The notes beneath the pieces were generated by a model. The model was not told where the DNA came from and did not search any database. It worked only from the letters and a program-made list of their open reading frames with translations. Positions 3,944 through 14,836 of a stretch of 64,000 bases of DNA are shown piece by piece; positions within the stretch are counted from its first letter, which is position 1, and each line of letters begins with the position of its first letter. The DNA comes from Salarchaeum sp. JOR-1 (GTDB lineage: Archaea; Halobacteriota; Halobacteria; Halobacteriales; Halobacteriaceae). Where the stretch lies: the NCBI RefSeq assembly GCF_007833275.1, contig NZ_CP042241.1, positions 1,922,001 through 1,986,000 on the forward strand. The letters are read 5' to 3'. Position numbers and translations under genes: made by a program.

Positions 3944-6900
3944 CTATTGCACCGTCGTGTTGTCCCGCACGTCGAAGTCTTTCTGTGTCCCGATGTCGTC
4001 CGCGTCCTGAGGGAACGAGACCGCCGAGAGGTCGATTCCCATTTCGAGTTCGTCGACGACGGACTGCGTCGCCTTCTGCACCTTCACCATCGCGGCTTTC
4101 GTCTCCTGCATCTGCGTCTCGACGTCGTACCCACGGGAGGTGATGATGTTCACTGAATCCCCGATGGCGAGAGGCGCGCTCCCCTCCGGATACTTGTCGA
4201 GCAAGCTCTCACCGCGCCACATACCGCCCCAGTGGAACGGCAGGAAGACCTCCTTCGAGTTCGGTCGATGCGTGACCCGCGCCTTCACGAGGATGGAGCC
4301 GCGGTCGGTCGTCGACACGGTTACGAGGTCGCCGCCGTCCACGCCGAGTTCCTCCGCGAGGTCGGGGTGGATTTCGGCGTACATGTGGGGCTGGAGGTCG
4401 GCGAGGAAGATGTTCGACCGGGACTCCGCACCGCCACCCTGGTGTTCGACCTGCCGACCGGTGGTCATAACGACCGTTCCGGGGTCGTCCGGACTGAACC
4501 CCTGGGAGGCCAGCTGATCCATCGCGTTCCGCTGCGTGACCGCGTTGTTCTGATCCAGCCGATAGAAGTTCGTCTGCTGGCCGTTTGCCGGCCACTCCTC
4601 CACGAGATCCGGCCGCGGGCTCTCGATCGGTTCGCGGTGGACCGGGACGGTGTCGATGAAGTTCCAGGTCACGCCGCGCGCCCGTCCGCGCCCCGTCGGC
4701 GCGTCCGGCTGTTTGTAATCGTACTGCTGGTAGAACGACTCGTCGAAGTTCGCCCAGTCGTACGTCCGGTTCATCGCGACGGCCGTGTCGTAGACGGACT
4801 TGTCCTCGCGGAGCGCGTACTCGAACGGAATCGTCAACGCGTCCGGGTTCGTGGGGTCGTCCGGCATCGTCGTCGCGAAGCCCGGATACTGGGGGACGCC
4901 CTGGATTTCGCCGCTGAACGAGGAGTTCGGCCAGTCCGGCGTGTACGAATCGCGGAGCATGTTCAGCCCCGCCTCGCCCTTGGCGTCGTACGTCTCCTGC
5001 ATCGGATACGGCTTGTCGGTGTCCATCGCCTCCCACTCCTGTGGGGTCGGCGCCTGCACGCCCCAGCGAGAGCGGAAGTCCTGGCCGCCGTTCCGCGGGT
5101 CGATGTCGTCCCGCCAGATGATCGGCGTCCCGGGGTGGCCTTCCCCCCAGCACGGCCACGGAAGCATCCAGTACTCGCCCGAGACGGGGAGGCTTTCCTC
5201 GTGGCACTTCGTGTCCTCCGTGCTGAACGCGTAGTCGTACTCGAGGTGTTGCTGGAGCCGCGCGGGATCCTGCTGGTAGCCGATCGTCCGGACGCCGAGG
5301 TTCACCTCGCGAAGGGCCTCCTCGTACGTCGACTTCCCGTTGTACATGTCGGGTCCGCTCCCCCAGTCGAAGTGCTCGCCCATGCCGAGCCGATCCGCGA
5401 GCTCCTGCATGATCTGCATGTCCGGCTTCGTGTTGTGGCTGGGCGGCCGAACGGGCTCAGACCACTGGACGGCCCGATGGGAGTTCGTCACGGATCGGTG
5501 GTGTTCGTACTGGCTCGCCGCCGGCAGGAGGATGACGCCGTCGTCGCGGTCTTGCATCACGGACGTGACGCTCGGGAAGAGGTCGACCACCACGAGCAGG
5601 TCGAGGGCCTCCATCGCCTGCTTCATCTTCTCCATCTCGCTGATGGAGTTCGAGGAGTGCCCCCAGATGAACGCCGCCTTCAGTTTGTCCGGCTGGTAGA
5701 GCGGCGTGTCGTGGAGCCGGTCGGGCTGGTCGAGCGCGCCCTCGAACCAGCGTGCGACCGTCATCCCCTTCTGGAACATCATCGAGCGGTCTTCCTCGGT
5801 GAGGGTCTCGTCTTCGGTTCCGGACTGCTTCCGGTAGACCTCCTCCGGCATGACGTCGTACTTCTGGTAGAGTTCCTCGTACGAGATGTCGCCGCTCGTG
5901 TACGGGCTCTTCGACCAGACGTCCGTCCAGTACTGCCAGGAGCCTTTCGAACTCACCGAGTAGTAGCCGGGGAGGACGTGGCTCGCGACGCCGAGGTCGG
6001 TCGCGCCCTGCACGTTCGCGTGGCCGCGCATCACCTGGAGGCCGCCGCCGGATCGGGCGGCGCTCCCGGAGGCGAGCGAGAGCAGCGCGTACGACCGGAT
6101 GTTCTGCGTGCCGTTGTTGTGCTGGGTGCCGCCCATCGCCCACTCGATCTGGACGCTCGGCTTGTTCTCGATGATGAGGTCGCCGAGCTCCCGGATCTGG
6201 TCTTCCGGAATCCACGTGATGTCCGCGACGGTTTCGAGGTCGTACTTGTCGAGTTCGACGGCGACGTCCTCCCAGGCCTGCACGCGCTCTGAGAGCATAT
6301 CGCGGTCGAGTTCGTTCTGGTCGCGGAGGTACTTGATGAGCCCCATCATCAGGGCGACGTCCGTCCCGGGACGGATGCGGTAGAAGTTGTCCGCGTGCGC
6401 CGAGGTCTTCGTGAACCGGGCGTCCACGGACGCGATGGTGCCGCCGCGCTTCTGGCCCTCGAGGATGTGCTGCATCGCGATCGGATGGGCTTCGGCGGGA
6501 TTCTGCCCGATGATGATGTTGAGGTCGTAGTTCCGGTAGTCGTTGATCGTGTTCGTCATCGCGCCGTAGCCCCACGTGTTCGCGAGGCCGGCGACGGTCG
6601 TCGAGTGACAGATACGGGCCTGGTGGTCGACGTTGTTCGTGCCGAACAGCGAGGAGAGCTTCCGGAACGCGTACGCCTCCTCGTTCGAGTGGTGGGCAGA
6701 CCCCATCCAGAAGACGCTGTCACGGCTGTGTTCCTCGACGATTCGGTCGAGTTCGTCCGTGATGTGGCTGTAGGCCTCGTCCCACGTGATCTTCTTCCAC
6801 TCGCCGTTCTCCTTCCGCATCGGGTGCTTCAGTCGGCGGTCGGAGTGTTCGCTCCCGTAGATGGCTGCGCCCTTCGAACAGAGCGAGCCGTTATTGATCG

Positions 6901-7156
6901 GGTTCTCGTGCCAGGGTTCCTGGCCGACGAACGCGTTCCCTTCGCGTTCGCCGTGGAATCCGCAACCGACCGCACAGAAGTTACAGATAGTCTTTGTCAG
7001 TTCTCCGTCGGTGTCTGTCCCGTCAGTCTCCCCATCGCCGTTCTCGGCGAGGACTTGCCCGGCGCCGCTGCCGCCGAGCGCGAGCGCGCCTGCGACGGCG
7101 CTCGCCTTCATGAACGACCGTCTGTCGAGGTCGAGCGAGACTGGCTCGGCACTCAC
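3944..7156 (-). CDS. fdhA: Formate dehydrogenase catalytic (alpha) subunit, Tat-exported molybdo/tungsto-enzyme
   Basis: A 1070-residue bis-MGD oxidoreductase oxidising formate on the outer face of the membrane. The twin-arginine signal is DRRSFMK at residues 11-17, with a hydrophobic stretch to about 36. C58, C61, C65 and C93 bind a [4Fe-4S] cluster. The metal ligand is C183 in HQARICHSTTV, where E. coli FdnG has selenocysteine, followed by the catalytic H184. The C-terminal molydopterin-dinucleotide domain starts near residue 900. Start is GTG at 7156 with a TATA box about 34 bp upstream. First gene of a five-gene operon. Whether Mo or W is used cannot be told; other family members oxidise different substrates, but the RICH context supports formate. 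Confidence 0.9.
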   Translation of the reverse strand: MSAEPVSLDLDRRSFMKASAVAGALALGGSGAGQVLAENGDGETDGTDTDGELTKTICNFCAVGCGFHGEREGNAFVGQEPWHENPINNGSLCSKGAAIYGSEHSDRRLKHPMRKENGEWKKITWDEAYSHITDELDRIVEEHSRDSVFWMGSAHHSNEEAYAFRKLSSLFGTNNVDHQARICHSTTVAGLANTWGYGAMTNTINDYRNYDLNIIIGQNPAEAHPIAMQHILEGQKRGGTIASVDARFTKTSAHADNFYRIRPGTDVALMMGLIKYLRDQNELDRDMLSERVQAWEDVAVELDKYDLETVADITWIPEDQIRELGDLIIENKPSVQIEWAMGGTQHNNGTQNIRSYALLSLASGSAARSGGGLQVMRGHANVQGATDLGVASHVLPGYYSVSSKGSWQYWTDVWSKSPYTSGDISYEELYQKYDVMPEEVYRKQSGTEDETLTEEDRSMMFQKGMTVARWFEGALDQPDRLHDTPLYQPDKLKAAFIWGHSSNSISEMEKMKQAMEALDLLVVVDLFPSVTSVMQDRDDGVILLPAASQYEHHRSVTNSHRAVQWSEPVRPPSHNTKPDMQIMQELADRLGMGEHFDWGSGPDMYNGKSTYEEALREVNLGVRTIGYQQDPARLQQHLEYDYAFSTEDTKCHEESLPVSGEYWMLPWPCWGEGHPGTPIIWRDDIDPRNGGQDFRSRWGVQAPTPQEWEAMDTDKPYPMQETYDAKGEAGLNMLRDSYTPDWPNSSFSGEIQGVPQYPGFATTMPDDPTNPDALTIPFEYALREDKSVYDTAVAMNRTYDWANFDESFYQQYDYKQPDAPTGRGRARGVTWNFIDTVPVHREPIESPRPDLVEEWPANGQQTNFYRLDQNNAVTQRNAMDQLASQGFSPDDPGTVVMTTGRQVEHQGGGAESRSNIFLADLQPHMYAEIHPDLAEELGVDGGDLVTVSTTDRGSILVKARVTHRPNSKEVFLPFHWGGMWRGESLLDKYPEGSAPLAIGDSVNIITSRGYDVETQMQETKAAMVKVQKATQSVVDELEMGIDLSAVSFPQDADDIGTQKDFDVRDNTTVQ

Positions 7157-7319: not shown

Positions 7320-9431
7320 ATGAACACCGGGGCTTTCGTCTGCTCCTGCGCAGACACCTGCGACATCGACCTCGAGGAGGTCCGTGACGGCGTCCGCGAC
7401 GTCGACGTCGTCGCGAGTTCCAGCCTCCTCTGCGAAGACGGACTCGACGGCGTCTCGTACGTCATCGACGAGCACGACCTCGACCAACTCATCGTCACCA
7501 CGCCCGACGACGGCTGCCAGGCCAAACTCCGGGACGTGGCGGACGCACACGACCTCCACCCGGACGCGGTGGAGTTCGTCGACCACCGCGAATCCGCCGG
7601 CTGGGTTCACGAACGCGCCGACGCGACCGACAAGACCGCTCGCCTGATCAATCGCGCGTCCACGGGCCTCGAACACGAGGCGCCCTCGCGGAGCGTCTCC
7701 CGGCAGGCCGGCGAGCGCGTCGCCGTCGTCGGGGACGCCGAGGCAGCCGCGACGCTCGCCGACTCCGCCGACGTGACCCTCATCGCGCACGGCCACGACT
7801 ACGCAGACCGCGACGTCGACCTGGACGGCGTGACCGTCGAACGCGGACACGTCATGGACGTCCACGGCGAGTTCGGCGGGTTCGACCTCACCGTCGAGGC
7901 GCGCGTCACCGACGACTGCGTCTCCTGCATGAAGTGCGTTCGCCGCGGCCCTGACGACCAGGTCACCGCGGCGCCGGTCGACATCGCGCCCGGCGCCGAG
8001 GACGGCGACTGGACGGAGTGTCCGACGGACGCCATCGACCTCGACGGCACCGCGCGGACGCTGTCGTTCGACCAGGTCGTCCACCCCGGTGCGGACGCGG
8101 ACACCCGCGCCGGCCGCGTCGGCTTCTACACGGGCCCCGTCGACCCCGCCACCGTCGCCGCCGTCGAAGACCTCTTGGGCGGCGTCGAGAAACCCCAGTT
8201 CCTCGACCTCGAGATGGACGTCTGCGCGGCCGGCGACCACGGCCAGGTCGGCTGTAACGCCTGCGTCGACGCCTGCCCGCACGGCGCGGTCTCACGAGAA
8301 CGCGTGGACAGCGTGGAGTTCGACCCCGTCGCATGCGAGAACTGCGGCGCCTGCACGAGTTCGTGTCCGACCGGCGCCACCCGACTCCGGGAGCCGTCGA
8401 ACGAACGCATCGCCCGCGAGGTCGAAGCCGTCACGACGAGCGAGAACGACGACGGCGGCTGGCTGTTCGACCGCGGTAACGACGGCATCGAGACCGAGGT
8501 CGTCGCGTTCGTCTGCTCGGAGCGCGCGGAACGCGCCGTCCGCTCCATCGGCAAGCACGCCGCCCGCGAGAACGACCTCACCTACCCACCCATTCTCCCC
8601 GTGCGCGTGAACTGCACGGACACCATCGGCGAAGGCCACGTCATGCACGCGCTCGCCGCGGGCGCCGACGGCGTCGCCATCGTCGGCTGCGGCGACGGGT
8701 GTCTCCACTCCGGCCCGGATCCGAAAGCCGCCCTCGTCGACCGCCTCAACACCGCGACGACCGACCTCGGACTGGGCGAACGCACGGCGTTCTTCGCGCC
8801 CGACCCCGACGACCCACACGGGTTCGCCGCGGACATCACCGCGTTCTTCGACGGCCTCGAGGAGACGGCGATTCCGACGGGCGAACACGAGGCGACGGGC
8901 GTCGTGGACGCCGAGAAACCCAATCCGGAGTTCAACAGCCACGACTGGACGCTCGAATCGGTACGGGAGATCGTCGACCACGTCGACCCCGAACGGGACG
9001 TGATCCGTGGGCTGGCCGACTTCGGCGTGATGTCGGTGAGCGACGACTGCACGTTCACGCCGACGTGTTCGACGCTCTGTCCGACGGACGCCATCGAACG
9101 GGACGGCGAAGCCGGCCTCCGGTTCAACCACGAGCGCTGCGTGAACTGCGGGCTCTGCGAGGACGGCTGCGTCGAGGACGCCATCACGATGAAGAACGGA
9201 CTCGACCTCACCCGACTCCCCGAAAACCGGGACGGCGAAGCGTGGGAGACGGTCGCGGACGGAGAGATGCAGGAGTGTCGGCGCTGCGGGAAGCCCTTCA
9301 CGAGTCAGGCGTCCGCGGAGAAAATCGAGGGCGAAGTCGGCGACGTCGTCGCCGGAATCGCGCCCGACGCCGAGGGAAGCATCTTCGAGTACTGTGGTGA
9401 CTGCCGGGCGAAACTGGTGTACGACGTATGA
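7320..9431 (+). CDS. HdrA-like / ferredoxin / MvhD fusion protein (multi [4Fe-4S] electron-transfer protein)
   Basis: A 703-residue soluble protein. Residues 1-120 resemble the N-terminus of heterodisulfide reductase subunit A (FVCSCADTC, then VDHRESAGWVHE). About 130-195 is a reduced Rossmann-like piece without a clear FAD-binding glycine motif. Ferredoxin modules follow: C200/203/206/C234; C312/315/319 with C302, and C339/342/345/349. Residues 392-515 match MvhD, the hydrogenase-heterodisulfide reductase linker, with C399, C432, C457 and C461. Two more clusters (C577/583/587 and C607/610/613/617) and a possible zinc ribbon (C653/656, C692/695) end it. It is divergent from formate dehydrogenase and coupled to a TorD chaperone. 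It probably moves electrons between formate dehydrogenase, ferredoxin and an unknown acceptor; bifurcation is unproven. Confidence 0.8.
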   Translation: MNTGAFVCSCADTCDIDLEEVRDGVRDVDVVASSSLLCEDGLDGVSYVIDEHDLDQLIVTTPDDGCQAKLRDVADAHDLHPDAVEFVDHRESAGWVHERADATDKTARLINRASTGLEHEAPSRSVSRQAGERVAVVGDAEAAATLADSADVTLIAHGHDYADRDVDLDGVTVERGHVMDVHGEFGGFDLTVEARVTDDCVSCMKCVRRGPDDQVTAAPVDIAPGAEDGDWTECPTDAIDLDGTARTLSFDQVVHPGADADTRAGRVGFYTGPVDPATVAAVEDLLGGVEKPQFLDLEMDVCAAGDHGQVGCNACVDACPHGAVSRERVDSVEFDPVACENCGACTSSCPTGATRLREPSNERIAREVEAVTTSENDDGGWLFDRGNDGIETEVVAFVCSERAERAVRSIGKHAARENDLTYPPILPVRVNCTDTIGEGHVMHALAAGADGVAIVGCGDGCLHSGPDPKAALVDRLNTATTDLGLGERTAFFAPDPDDPHGFAADITAFFDGLEETAIPTGEHEATGVVDAEKPNPEFNSHDWTLESVREIVDHVDPERDVIRGLADFGVMSVSDDCTFTPTCSTLCPTDAIERDGEAGLRFNHERCVNCGLCEDGCVEDAITMKNGLDLTRLPENRDGEAWETVADGEMQECRRCGKPFTSQASAEKIEGEVGDVVAGIAPDAEGSIFEYCGDCRAKLVYDV

Positions 9432-10242: not shown

Positions 10243-10584
10243 TCACTCGACGCCGGGGGCGTTCGGCGGGCGTTCCTCGTCGTCGTGCAGGAACACCCGC
10301 GCGTAGAGGTCGACGTGGATGCGGAGGATCTCCGCGACGCTCACGTCGTGTTCGTCCGCCTGCGCTTCCAGGAAGGACGCGACGTCCGGAACGGGCTCGT
10401 AGTGGACGGTCGTACCGTCGACCGTGAAGTCGACGTCGAACTCGTTCGCGAGCAAGTTCTCGATCTCGAGGAGCGCCTGTTCGACCTTCGATTCGAGCGC
10501 GTCCTCGGTGTCCATCATCCGCTGGTTCCCCCACTCTTCGGCGCCCTCGACGAGCCGGTCGGACGCCTCGAACGTGACCGTCAA
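10243..10584 (-). CDS. 113-residue conserved hypothetical, TTG start
   Basis: Unknown function. I place the start at the TTG at 10584, which overlaps the stop of the preceding zinc-ribbon gene as TTGA. The longer frame to 10620 would overlap that gene by 40 bp. The protein begins with TVTFEASDRL. It has a helical middle (MDTEDALESKVEQALLEIEN), a possible beta unit near residues 45-65 and an acidic tail. There are no cysteines and no membrane segment. It is made with the AOR-like operon, which suggests an accessory role. Confidence 0.65.
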   Translation of the reverse strand: MTVTFEASDRLVEGAEEWGNQRMMDTEDALESKVEQALLEIENLLANEFDVDFTVDGTTVHYEPVPDVASFLEAQADEHDVSVAEILRIHVDLYARVFLHDDEERPPNAPGVE

Positions 10585-10718
10585 AACGACACCCCCTGGC
10601 CCTCGAACGCGGGCTCCCACGACGTCGGTTCCTCACACACCGGACACTGCTGAGTGAACGGCGTGGTGCGGTTGACGACGCTCATCATCGCCTCACAGTC
10701 GACACATTCGACGTACAT
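10581..10718 (-). CDS. 45-residue zinc-ribbon protein
   Basis: A micro-protein with two knuckles, CVDC at residues 5-8 and CPVC at 25-28, the usual layout of haloarchaeal small zinc-finger proteins. The start ATG directly follows the TAG of the membrane protein gene, and the stop overlaps the next TTG start, so the whole string is tightly coupled. Zinc binding is inferred from the two CxxC pairs. A role in protein-protein or nucleic-acid binding is possible. Confidence 0.75.
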   Translation of the reverse strand: MYVECVDCEAMMSVVNRTTPFTQQCPVCEEPTSWEPAFEGQGVSF

Positions 10719-11018: not shown

Positions 11019-11708
11019 TCATTCCCCCGCCAGTTCCCAGTCGGCCTGTTCGGCCGCGTGCTCGAGCGGAACGAACTCCCAGTCCGCCGCCGCGGCGATG
11101 GACTCGTCGTCCGTGGATTCGAGACCGACGACCGCCATCCGGTCGGCGTAAAACATCGAGGACGGGCCGATGTCGGCGAGACGCTCACCGGGGCCGTCGC
11201 CGGAGCCGTTGAAGAAGTCGATATCGAGGCCCGTCTCCCGGAGGAACGAGTTGATTTCGTGCGCGTCGACGTGGCCGACGATACCGATCCAGTCCGCCCA
11301 CTCGTTCGCCTCCGCGAGCGCGGCTCGGACATCCGCGAGGCGCTGGACGGCGTCGAACGTGAACGCGAACGTGAGGTCGTCCGCGCCGCCGCCGTGGGGT
11401 CCAGACGCCTGCGGCGCTTCGGGTTCCTGCTCGCCGCCGGTGCCGCCGCTCCCGGCGCCACCTGATTCGACGGGAATGCCGACGGGTTTGTCCTTGTTCT
11501 CGTGCGGGACGTGCGGGATGCGGTCTGCGTTCGTCTCGCTCGACGGACTGCCGACGCCGGCGTCCGTCGCAGCGCCGCCGTCGATCGACGCCGCGTCTTC
11601 GGGCGAGGCGTCGGAGTCCCCGCGACCCCAGAACCACTCGCCGTCGTCCGCGTCCTGTTCGTCCTGCGTGTCGGTCTCGATGTCGTCGAGGTCGATTCGT
11701 TCCGTCAT
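11019..11708 (-). CDS. Conserved haloarchaeal acidic protein (DUF7124-like)
   Basis: A 229-residue protein in two parts. Residues 1-100 are an acidic, Gly/Ser-rich, probably disordered arm. Residues 105-229 are a folded part with FAFTFDAVQRLADV, a WIGIVGHVDAHEINSFL stretch and ADWEFVPLEHAAEQADW at the end. I associate this pattern with a haloarchaea-restricted family (DUF7124), from memory. Its ATG overlaps the stop of the AOR-like gene (ATGA 11705-11708), so the two are co-translated and may form a complex. No catalytic motif is seen. Confidence 0.75.
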   Translation of the reverse strand: MTERIDLDDIETDTQDEQDADDGEWFWGRGDSDASPEDAASIDGGAATDAGVGSPSSETNADRIPHVPHENKDKPVGIPVESGGAGSGGTGGEQEPEAPQASGPHGGGADDLTFAFTFDAVQRLADVRAALAEANEWADWIGIVGHVDAHEINSFLRETGLDIDFFNGSGDGPGERLADIGPSSMFYADRMAVVGLESTDDESIAAAADWEFVPLEHAAEQADWELAGE

Positions 11709-13429
11709 AGGTCAGTGAGTCCGAGTCGGTCGCGCGTCGCCGGCGTTGGCCGTCCGTGGTCGTCCCAGCCCCGGCGGTCGTAGTACGTTTCGAGGAGCGA
11801 TTCGAAGCGGTCAGCGTCGACGGACGCGCCCGCCGCCGGCCCGTCGGGGAGCGGCGTTGTGAGCACCGCGGGCAGCGAGTCGTCCGCCCGGTCGAACCCC
11901 TCGCGGACGTTGAACAGGCGGACGAGGTTCCAGACGCGCTCACCCAGCAGCCGGAGGTCGGCAGGGGTCGCGTCGACGCCGACCGCGGCGAGCAGTGAGG
12001 CGCCGACGTCGTCGAACGCCTCGCCGACGAAGTCGTCGAGTCCGAGGCTCCAGAGCGCCGACCGGCGGTTCTGTTCCTCGATGACGGCGTCCACGCGCTG
12101 GTCGTCCGTCCAGTCGCCCGCGACGGCGGACTGTTCGATGGGGCGGGCGCGTCGGTGGCAGGCACCACGGTCGCTGGTCGCGTACGCGAGCGCCATCGCG
12201 GGGGCTGCCCGGGGGTCGTAGGCGGGGAGTTCCATCGCCTTCACCGTCGGCACGTGCTCGGCCGCGCCCAGTTCTTCGGCGGCCGCGGCGACGCCGTCCG
12301 CGAGCGCGTCTCCGAGCGCGGTCTCCCGACCGGCGACCTCCCGAATCAGGGCGCGCGCGGCGTCCGCGTCACCGAAGTCGACGTCGCGGTCGACGTGACC
12401 GTCGGCGCTCGCGCGAGCCGCGAACGCCACCGCGTTCCCCGCGGTGATGACGTCCACCCCGAGCCGGTCGCAGAGCGCTCCGAGCGCCGCCACCGCGTCG
12501 AAGTCGTCGATGCCCAGTCCCGCGCCGAGGGAGATCGGTGTCGACCCGCGCGGCACCGTCTCGCCTTCCGCGCTCTCCACGCGGAACCCGCCCGGTCGGG
12601 CGCCGTCGCGTTCGCGTTCCACGGCGGCGTCGCGCGCCGCCTCGATACCGATGTCGTCGGCGCCGGCGAACGTCCCCTCCTGCCAGCCCCGAGTGGGGAG
12701 CGCGCCGATCTCGTTCGCGAAGTCGACGGTCTCCAGAGTCTCGCTCGCGGCCTGCCAGCGGCCGACGTCTGACTCCGCGAACGCGTCGTCAACCAGGGCG
12801 GAGCGGTCGGGCGCGTCCGGAGCGGGGTCGCGCGCGACGACCGCTTTGAGGTTCTTCGACCCCATCACGGCGCCCGCGCCGCCGCGGCCCGCGTGGTGGT
12901 CGCCGCCGTCGGACGCGATAGTCGCGTACGCCACCTCGTTCTCGCCCGCCGGGCCGACGCACGCCACCGCGGCGTCCGGGTACGCGTCCGCGGCTTCGAC
13001 GGCGTCCGCTCCCGCGAGGGCTGTCGCGGGTTCGAGGCGGGCGTCGCCGTTCTCGACGACGAGCGCGGTCGGCTCGCTCGCGCGGCCGGTGACGACGACG
13101 ACGAGGTGGTCGCCGAGCGAGCCGGCGAGCCGCTGCGGGAACGTGCCGCCCGCGTACGAGTCGAGAAACGTCCCGGTCAGGGGGGATTTCGTCACGGCCG
13201 CGTACCGGCCGTCGGCCGTCACGGCGGACAGCGGACCGAGCGCGAACACGAGCGCGTTCTCCGGGCCGAGCGCGTCGGCGTTCCGCGGGACGTTCGCGTG
13301 GAGGTATCGCGCGCCGAGACCCTTCCCGCCCCGGTAGGCGTCGAGCCAGTCGTCCGGGATGGGTTCGCTTTCGATGCGGCGCTCGTCGAGTGCTACGCGG
13401 AGTGCGCGGGTCGGTGGCGTCCACGCCAT
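11705..13429 (-). CDS. Aldehyde:ferredoxin oxidoreductase-like protein lacking the [4Fe-4S] cysteines
   Basis: A 574-residue member of the AOR family (tungstopterin enzymes oxidising aldehydes to acids with ferredoxin). Family landmarks are present: GPAGEN near 160, GRGGAGAVMGSKNLKA at 181-196, DRLGVD at 321-326 (the first pterin-binding DxxGxD) and YDPRAAP and RGACHRRA at 404-428. However, the CxxCxxxC that should lie about residues 265-285 is absent: there is no cysteine between C157 and C320. The fourth ligand, normally in DxxGLC, is replaced (SLGLDDF, D465). So it can hardly hold the usual cluster and may use another electron route or be non-catalytic. It heads a six-gene operon of small proteins. 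Confidence 0.85.
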   Translation of the reverse strand: MAWTPPTRALRVALDERRIESEPIPDDWLDAYRGGKGLGARYLHANVPRNADALGPENALVFALGPLSAVTADGRYAAVTKSPLTGTFLDSYAGGTFPQRLAGSLGDHLVVVVTGRASEPTALVVENGDARLEPATALAGADAVEAADAYPDAAVACVGPAGENEVAYATIASDGGDHHAGRGGAGAVMGSKNLKAVVARDPAPDAPDRSALVDDAFAESDVGRWQAASETLETVDFANEIGALPTRGWQEGTFAGADDIGIEAARDAAVERERDGARPGGFRVESAEGETVPRGSTPISLGAGLGIDDFDAVAALGALCDRLGVDVITAGNAVAFAARASADGHVDRDVDFGDADAARALIREVAGRETALGDALADGVAAAAEELGAAEHVPTVKAMELPAYDPRAAPAMALAYATSDRGACHRRARPIEQSAVAGDWTDDQRVDAVIEEQNRRSALWSLGLDDFVGEAFDDVGASLLAAVGVDATPADLRLLGERVWNLVRLFNVREGFDRADDSLPAVLTTPLPDGPAAGASVDADRFESLLETYYDRRGWDDHGRPTPATRDRLGLTDL

Positions 13430-13505: not shown

Positions 13506-14120
13506 ATGCAGAGCGCCGTCATTGTCGCGGGCGGGCGGTCGACGCGGTTCGGGGACGCCGACAAGGCCGTCGCGGACCTCGCGGGCACGCCGATGGTTCG
13601 CCGGGTCGCCGACCGACTCACCGGCGTCGTCGACGAGCTCGTGGTGAACTGTCGCGCGGATCAGCGGGACGCCATCGCGGACGCGCTCGACGGCTACGAG
13701 CGACCGGTCGCGTTCGCGCTCGACCCGGCGGAGGACGAGGGGCCGATGGCGGGCATCCGAACCGGCCTCCGCGGCGCGAACGGCGAGTACGCGGCCGTCG
13801 TCGCCTGCGACATGCCGTTCGTCGACCCGGCGTTCGTCGCGTACCTCTTCGAGCGTGCCGCGGGGGCGGATGCCGCTGTGCCCCGGGTCGGCGACGGCTG
13901 GTTCCAGACGACGCAGGCGGTGTACCGTGCGGATGCGATGGCGGCGGCCTGCGAGGACGCGCTCGACGCGGGCGAGCGGAAGATACTCGAACCGCTGTTC
14001 ACGCTCGACTACGAGGTCGTCACGGAACGCGAGGTCGAAGAACACGCGGCGAACGGGACGGGGACGTTCGAGAACTTGAACACTCGCGCGGAGCTCGAGG
14101 ACGCACAGGACGCCTTCTAG
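13506..14120 (+). CDS. mobA: Molybdenum cofactor guanylyltransferase MobA
   Basis: A 204-residue nucleotidyltransferase that attaches GMP to molybdopterin, making the MGD cofactor required by formate dehydrogenase. I start it at ATG 13506 (MQSAVIVAGG) because the glycine-rich loop should begin within the first ten residues; the track's earlier start adds unsupported sequence. Motifs are GGRSTRFGDADKA (residues 9-21), the GPMAGIRTGL segment and the metal-binding CDMPFV. It is divergent from the AOR-like gene by about 75 bp and convergent with yqeC (4-bp tail overlap). Confidence 0.92.
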   Translation: MQSAVIVAGGRSTRFGDADKAVADLAGTPMVRRVADRLTGVVDELVVNCRADQRDAIADALDGYERPVAFALDPAEDEGPMAGIRTGLRGANGEYAAVVACDMPFVDPAFVAYLFERAAGADAAVPRVGDGWFQTTQAVYRADAMAAACEDALDAGERKILEPLFTLDYEVVTEREVEEHAANGTGTFENLNTRAELEDAQDAF

Positions 14121-14836
14121 ACCACGTCCACCAGCGGGTCGTCGCGGACGTGACTGGTGAGCGCGACGCGCTCGACGGCGGCTCGGTCGTGGAGTTCGCC
14201 CGCGATGGAGCGCGCGACCGCGAGGGACGCGTCGTCGTCGACCTTGTTCAGGACGGGGACGACGGTCGCGTCCGCGGGTACGTCTTTCAGGCCGCCGTCG
14301 GGGTGCGCGAGTACGCGGGCGACGTGTTCCGGTTCGATAGTGTCGCCGACGGCGAGGTCGGTGAGCGCGGCGACGCGTTCGGGGCGGTGGACGAGCGCGT
14401 CGTCGAGTGGTTCCCCGACGGCTTGAACGGACGCGACGGGGAGGACGGTGTCGGCGTTCGACGGGATCTGTGGCTCCTTCGCCGCGGGAGCCTTGAAGTC
14501 GCGCATCCGCGCGCCGTCCGCCTTCACCAGGACGGCGTCGACGTCGCACTCGCGGAGATCCGCGACGGTTTCGGTGTCGAATCCGCGGTAGCGGTCGGCG
14601 CGTTCCTGGGCGCGCACGACGCCGACGGGAAAGTCCGTGGCGGCGTCGACGACGCGACGGGGGTCGTCGGCGACGTGGACGGCGGTGACGTGCTCGGCGA
14701 ACGGGGGGATGCGGACGGTGGCGGTGACGACCGCCCGGTCGAGCCGGTCGGCGAGCGCGTACAGTGTGGTCTTCTTCCCGCCGGCGCCGACCACGGCGAC
14801 GAGGCCGCGCGCGGCGAGCGCGTCGCTGAGTTCCAT
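14117..14836 (-). CDS. yqeC: YqeC-like selenium/molybdenum cofactor protein
   Basis: A 239-residue P-loop protein. VVGAGGKKTTLYALA (residues 14-28) matches the YqeC glycine-rich loop, and VLVKADGARMRDFKAP (about 100-116) is the characteristic EaDGs..r.lKaP block, here with V-K in place of V-E. In bacteria YqeC is a marker of selenium-dependent molybdenum hydroxylases, which use a labile non-selenocysteine selenium cofactor. Adjacent mobA supports a molybdoenzyme role. No SelD or hydroxylase is in the window. Function in archaea is inferred. Confidence 0.8.
   Translation of the reverse strand: MELSDALAARGLVAVVGAGGKKTTLYALADRLDRAVVTATVRIPPFAEHVTAVHVADDPRRVVDAATDFPVGVVRAQERADRYRGFDTETVADLRECDVDAVLVKADGARMRDFKAPAAKEPQIPSNADTVLPVASVQAVGEPLDDALVHRPERVAALTDLAVGDTIEPEHVARVLAHPDGGLKDVPADATVVPVLNKVDDDASLAVARSIAGELHDRAAVERVALTSHVRDDPLVDVV

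Follow-up and report, generated by a model that had tools for sequence, protein, structure and literature searches.

A haloarchaeal clade of aldehyde ferredoxin oxidoreductase-family proteins without [4Fe-4S] cluster ligands is associated with formate dehydrogenase

Aldehyde ferredoxin oxidoreductases (AORs) bind their tungsten or molybdenum (W/Mo) cofactor as a nucleotide-free bis-pterin. P. furiosus AOR (1aor) and C. autoethanogenum AOR (9g7j) belong to class I of the AOR/WOR family (InterPro IPR013983 and IPR001203), which a 2026 AOR/WOR survey defines by a single [4Fe-4S] cluster while reporting very little variation in cofactor ligands (PMC13328260). A Glu/Tyr loop of AOR acts as a proton relay and in catalysis (PMC12096430). 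A further relative, E. coli YdhV, contains a nucleotide-free bis-pterin cofactor, bis-Mo-MPT, that MobA can convert to bis-MGD, and its function is unknown (PMC9103625). After this conversion the cofactor taken from YdhV activates apo-TorA, and bis-Mo-MPT is less stable than bis-MGD (PMC9103625). We describe here a haloarchaeal clade, AORx, that has in common with the two class I enzymes the three-domain fold, the AFOR_N and AFOR_C domains and a Thr/Tyr/His pocket. However, AORx is ~30% identical to them, lacks the [4Fe-4S] ligands and Glu311/Tyr312/Glu313, has Trp in place of Asp489, and is tied to formate dehydrogenase (FDH) loci. AORx also differs from YdhV, which is a class V, membrane-associated protein with a WorS partner (PMC13328260), has a Cys metal ligand that AORx lacks (PMC12096430), and has no known link to FDH. 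FdhD, the sulfurtransferase of the FDH cofactor, is from an unrelated family, although it and AORx may have a client, FDH, in common.

We analyzed a window of 64,000 nucleotides from Salarchaeum sp. JOR-1 and use the name AORx for the clade containing the product of its 574-aa minus-strand open reading frame (ORF; 13429..11705). The initial annotation had placed this gene correctly but gave no strand, and it missed the FDH and cofactor-maturation genes that surround it (Table 1). The protein matches AFOR_N (E 1.6e-59) and AFOR_C (E 1.5e-93), and the Pfam scan returned AFOR domains only, with no PF02634 (FdhD). Its sequence has no export signal and starts straight at the AOR domain, whereas the FDH of the window appears to be Tat-exported, its alpha subunit carrying a probable Tat signal in a longer, 1070-aa reading. 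Downstream of AORx, the genes for the conserved 89-aa and 113-aa proteins are separated by a minus-strand ORF of 45 aa (10581-10718), whose two CxxC pairs resemble a zinc ribbon when read by eye. A canonical cluster-bearing AOR (CHSCPVAC, DICKF) is also encoded in this genome, on a 179-kb second contig (G000:C1:149740-151581, L001).

Table 1. AORx and neighboring genes in the window
Feature	Coordinates	Strand	Remarks
Cytochrome b561-type membrane subunit, 332 aa	1894..2892	-	
FDH iron-sulfur (beta) subunit-like protein, 214 aa	3278..3922	-	
FDH catalytic (alpha) subunit, DMSO-reductase family	3944..7111	-	Active-site motif DHQARICHSTTV
703-aa protein with FlpD and several 4Fe-4S ferredoxin domains	7320..9431	+	
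TorD/NarJ-type Mo-enzyme chaperone, 209 aa	9428..10057	+	
113-aa conserved protein, unknown family	10243..10584	-	24 AORx loci
Small predicted membrane-type protein, 89 aa	10719..10988	-	Conserved, 24 AORx loci
229-aa protein, C-terminal DUF7124	11019..11708	-	Start codon overlaps AORx stop by 4 bp
AORx, AOR/WOR-family protein, 574 aa	11705..13429	-	PRGS in place of GPEYE
MobA-like molybdenum cofactor nucleotidyltransferase, 204 aa	13506..14120	+	PF12804 above cut-off; under NCBI curated MobA cut-off
YqeC, putative Mo-cofactor maturation protein	14117..14836	-	TIGR03172 above cut-off

The only cysteines of the 574-aa protein are C157, C320 and C424, with none between C157 and C320. In an alignment to P. 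furiosus AOR, the cluster ligands C288, C291 and C295 fall in a deleted segment and C494 corresponds to Asp465. The initial annotation had read the missing cysteines and D465 from the single sequence, and we find that these features hold throughout the clade: among 111 non-identical AORx relatives aligned (a few possibly two views of one gene), Asp465 is present in 111 and CxxCxxxC in none. CxxCxxxC and the fourth Cys are kept in 18/18 other family members, which comprise P. furiosus AOR and four other haloarchaeal clades. Cysteines are conserved among AORx at C157 (110/111), C320 and C424 (111/111 each), the latter two being ordinary family positions that are present in cluster-bearing members as well. 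No substitute set of four Cys ligands is conserved across the 111 AORx, so the loss of the ligands stands and we rule out a cluster bound by other cysteines. We likewise looked for a Cys metal ligand near the GPEYE region, a trait of YdhV and BamB; judged by region rather than by alignment to BamB Cys322, it is absent, as only 9/111 AORx have any Cys in 200-318, none of these is conserved, and position 296 is Ala, Ser or Gly. In some AORx (L125, L126, L119), the site of the missing cluster-binding segment is taken up by an acidic insertion of low complexity.

Changes to the active site extend beyond the cluster. E311, Y312 and E313 of P. furiosus AOR are replaced by R294, G295 and (A,S,G)296 in AORx, with the Glu313 position occupied by Ala in 91, Ser in 12 and Gly in 8 of the 111; outside AORx, every sequence compared keeps Glu311 and Glu313, with Tyr or Phe between them. 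The initial annotation had stated that the pterin-binding landmarks are kept. This is correct only in part: one of the two pterin aspartates, P. furiosus D489, which we take to be a pterin contact in the 1aor structure, is W460 in 111/111 AORx. Together with R426, directly after the catalytic His, and D465, the R294-G295 pair and W460 are specific to the clade. The P. furiosus residues that AORx retains include the second-shell residues Thr243 (110/111), Tyr427 (110/111) and His448 (111/111), along with Asp343 and Arg186; in AORx numbering, T231, Y404, H425, D326 and R182 are each found in at least 110/111. Invariant residues of the pocket and phosphate end are G94, R182, D326 and H425. A ColabFold (AlphaFold2) model built from 34 sequences (pLDDT 85, pTM 0.90) superposes on P. 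furiosus AOR (1aor) with a TM score of 0.91 (Foldseek) and on solved AORs with scores of 0.91-0.92; in this prediction, the AOR fold has outlived the loss of the cluster ligands. With the catalytic Glu, the Glu/Tyr relay and the cluster all lost, ordinary aldehyde oxidation with ferredoxin by AORx is unlikely.

We found a close AORx relative in 206 of 394 haloarchaeal genomes searched, and none outside Halobacteria among 394 genomes of the phylum, where the nearest non-haloarchaeal relatives are 45% and 42% identical and keep every ligand. In a maximum-likelihood tree, AORx is monophyletic (100/100) on a stem of 0.86 changes per site and is nested among cluster-bearing proteins, with a cluster-bearing sister clade (support 99/95; L113, L115, L116, L118 and the non-haloarchaeal G689 and G576). 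The haloarchaeal members of this sister clade are 44-47% identical to AORx but, unlike AORx, retain the complete ligand set (CxxCxxxC and the fourth Cys) along with GPEYE. At the three haloarchaeal loci examined (L145-L147), no FDH gene was seen near them. As AORx occupies one branch amid cluster-bearing proteins, the cluster was lost a single time. The cysteine-less clade that the initial annotation had proposed to look for thus exists, as one widespread haloarchaeal clade with a long stem, and the sequencing error it had named as an alternative is ruled out, as is a frameshift, by 111 concordant relatives. A decaying gene is ruled out as well, since the ORF is open in nearly every relative (54-75% identity) and the pocket residues are invariant.

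We next consider the genomic context of AORx. A Cys/Sec-His pair is the mark of FDH within the DMSO-reductase family, and the linked FDH genes that we inspected carry the Cys-His motif. Across 81 loci (80 named haloarchaeal loci and the window, counted within fetched flanks), AORx neighbors include FDH alpha (52), YqeC (35), DUF7124 (32), a NarJ/TorD chaperone (30), FlpD (27) and MobA (21), and the 4-bp overlap between the DUF7124 gene and AORx recurs in 21 of 32 loci. The physical linkage of AORx and FDH is seen in rearranged gene orders and in several haloarchaeal families; Haloferax massiliensis and H. gibbonsii are two AORx-positive examples. Linked FDHs are of three architectures, one Tat-exported with FlpD, one paired with a NuoF-like protein (~1100 aa), and one of ~700 aa. 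These differ in electron partners but share the bis-pterin and its maturation, which favors a role linked to the cofactor; the association with all three suggests a target that every FDH has, for instance the cofactor, rather than one electron chain.

To score co-occurrence, we used a DNA motif of the active site of FDH, whose reversed form gave zero hits as a control, in 206 AORx and 170 AORx-negative genomes, leaving out 18 of ambiguous AORx status. The motif is present in 199/206 AORx genomes versus 50/170 AORx-negative genomes (odds ratio 68, p 9e-48, a statistic that ignores kinship), the latter count possibly hiding more because the motif excludes the DTCTRMCHSSTV variant. Six of the seven motif-negative AORx genomes hold an FDH with DTCTRMCHSSTV and the seventh is incomplete; with the variant added, FDH is found in 205/206 AORx genomes. 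The FDH type of the window occurs in only two AORx-negative genomes, G349 and G379. AORx is thus associated with FDH.

YqeC is a marker of selenium-dependent molybdenum hydroxylases. In 77 haloarchaeal genomes, however, it tracks FDH, being present in 42/44 genomes with FDH versus 4/33 without it, which suggests a role for YqeC in maturation of the FDH cofactor; it is also present in 35/35 AORx genomes versus 11/42 others. FdhD/NarQ (PF02634) was found in 0/77 of the haloarchaeal genomes tested, the genome of the window included, and in 8/14 control genomes, three archaea among these. Haloarchaeal FDHs must therefore mature by other means. Replacement of FdhD as the sole role of AORx is weakened, because FdhD is missing too from FDH genomes without AORx.

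AOR-family proteins have entered FDH operons at least twice. In G349 and G051, an exported-FDH operon contains a different AOR at the position of AORx (L142:482-15749, L183:2129-11107). These two operon AORs are 59% identical to each other, distantly related to AORx, and intact in their cluster ligands and GPEYE. In G349 the AOR gene overlaps the MobA and FlpD genes, and an ABC transporter resembling, by eye, W/Mo uptake systems lies downstream. The repeated entry argues that the link between the family and FDH is real, yet it leaves room for a catalytic role, and the intact proteins of G349 and G051 suggest that in those operons the AOR acts as a catalyst and not as a carrier.

What might a cluster-less AOR do beside FDH? 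We tentatively propose that AORx assists FDH from the cytoplasm, holding the W/Mo bis-pterin cofactor or passing it on, a reading that we prefer to its rivals even if we would not call it probable. The cofactor shared by FDHs and the MobA-convertible bis-MPT of YdhV together favor this carrier or platform role. Also in its favor are a fold and pocket conserved despite the clade-wide loss of ligands and catalytic Glu, the co-occurrence with FDH, the recurrence of cofactor genes (YqeC, NarJ/TorD, MobA) among the neighbors, and the absence of FdhD. In such a scheme, AORx would be a non-redox carrier or assembly platform whose fold still holds W/Mo bis-pterin, free of nucleotides, in the cytoplasm. 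It would offer the cofactor to MobA and YqeC, which would add the nucleotides and finish it; loading into apo-FDH would then be helped by the TorD/NarJ-type chaperone. Loss of the cluster and the Glu/Tyr relay would keep the AORx-held cofactor from redox chemistry, and R294 and R426 would suit an anionic cofactor or a partner. Several observations run counter to this proposal: with the position of P. furiosus D489 and the Glu311/Glu313 loop changed, cofactor binding may be altered or lost; the 50 AORx-negative genomes with a CH-motif FDH indicate that AORx is not universally required; the AORs of the G349 and G051 operons keep their cluster and Glu; and roughly one AORx locus in six has no FDH-related gene nearby. 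The initial annotation had offered either a changed electron route, for which we found no support, or a non-enzymatic tungsten/pterin-binding protein, which would fit better.

We consider it rather unlikely that AORx has remained an enzyme, acting in formate or one-carbon metabolism to supply or remove the substrate of FDH, either by a redox-neutral reaction at W/Mo bis-pterin or with electrons leaving to a separate iron-sulfur protein, for example the FlpD/ferredoxin protein. The near-invariant pocket Thr, Tyr and His (at least 110/111), the cluster-bearing AORs that occupy its position in the G349 and G051 operons, and the precedent of other chemistry within the family in BamB (PMC12096430) would all fit such an enzyme, but essentially no AORx has kept Glu313 or the Glu311/Tyr312 relay, FlpD accompanies one FDH architecture only, and no alternative ligand set for a cluster is conserved. 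Somewhat less likely again, AORx may use the old fold but take no part in cofactor transfer, acting on FDH in a structural or regulatory way or sensing the W/Mo cofactor. The many lost catalytic residues, the long stem and the translational coupling at many loci to an uncharacterized DUF7124 protein agree with it; against this, the invariant G94, R182, D326 and H425 would be unusual in a pure scaffold, and a protein without an export signal is an awkward partner for an FDH that is apparently exported. Finally, shared ancestry or habitat could by itself bring the two together if both are retained in the large genomes of facultative anaerobes, with AORx acting independently, as might be argued from a co-occurrence statistic that ignores phylogeny and from the 13/81 loci (some on short contigs) without a linked FDH-related gene within 8 kb. 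We regard this as improbable given linkage to three FDH types in rearranged orders across several families and the near-universal presence of FDH in AORx genomes.

On the carrier reading, the AOR fold may have turned from an enzyme into a dedicated haloarchaeal FDH maturation factor, a non-redox W/Mo bis-pterin carrier that acts with YqeC and MobA in a route without FdhD, in a family recruited to FDH operons at least twice; we put this fuller scenario forward with a little more reserve than the accessory role itself. In the literature searched, mainly outside the subscription journals, we found no prior description of AORx-like proteins, of a cluster-less AOR clade, of a link between AOR and FDH or their shared operons, or of FdhD in haloarchaea. 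A clade present in about half of the sampled haloarchaeal genomes breaks the rule of one [4Fe-4S] cluster in class I, and the automatic label “aldehyde ferredoxin oxidoreductase” is probably wrong for hundreds of proteins. AORx makes it testable how FDHs acquire their cofactor in organisms without FdhD.
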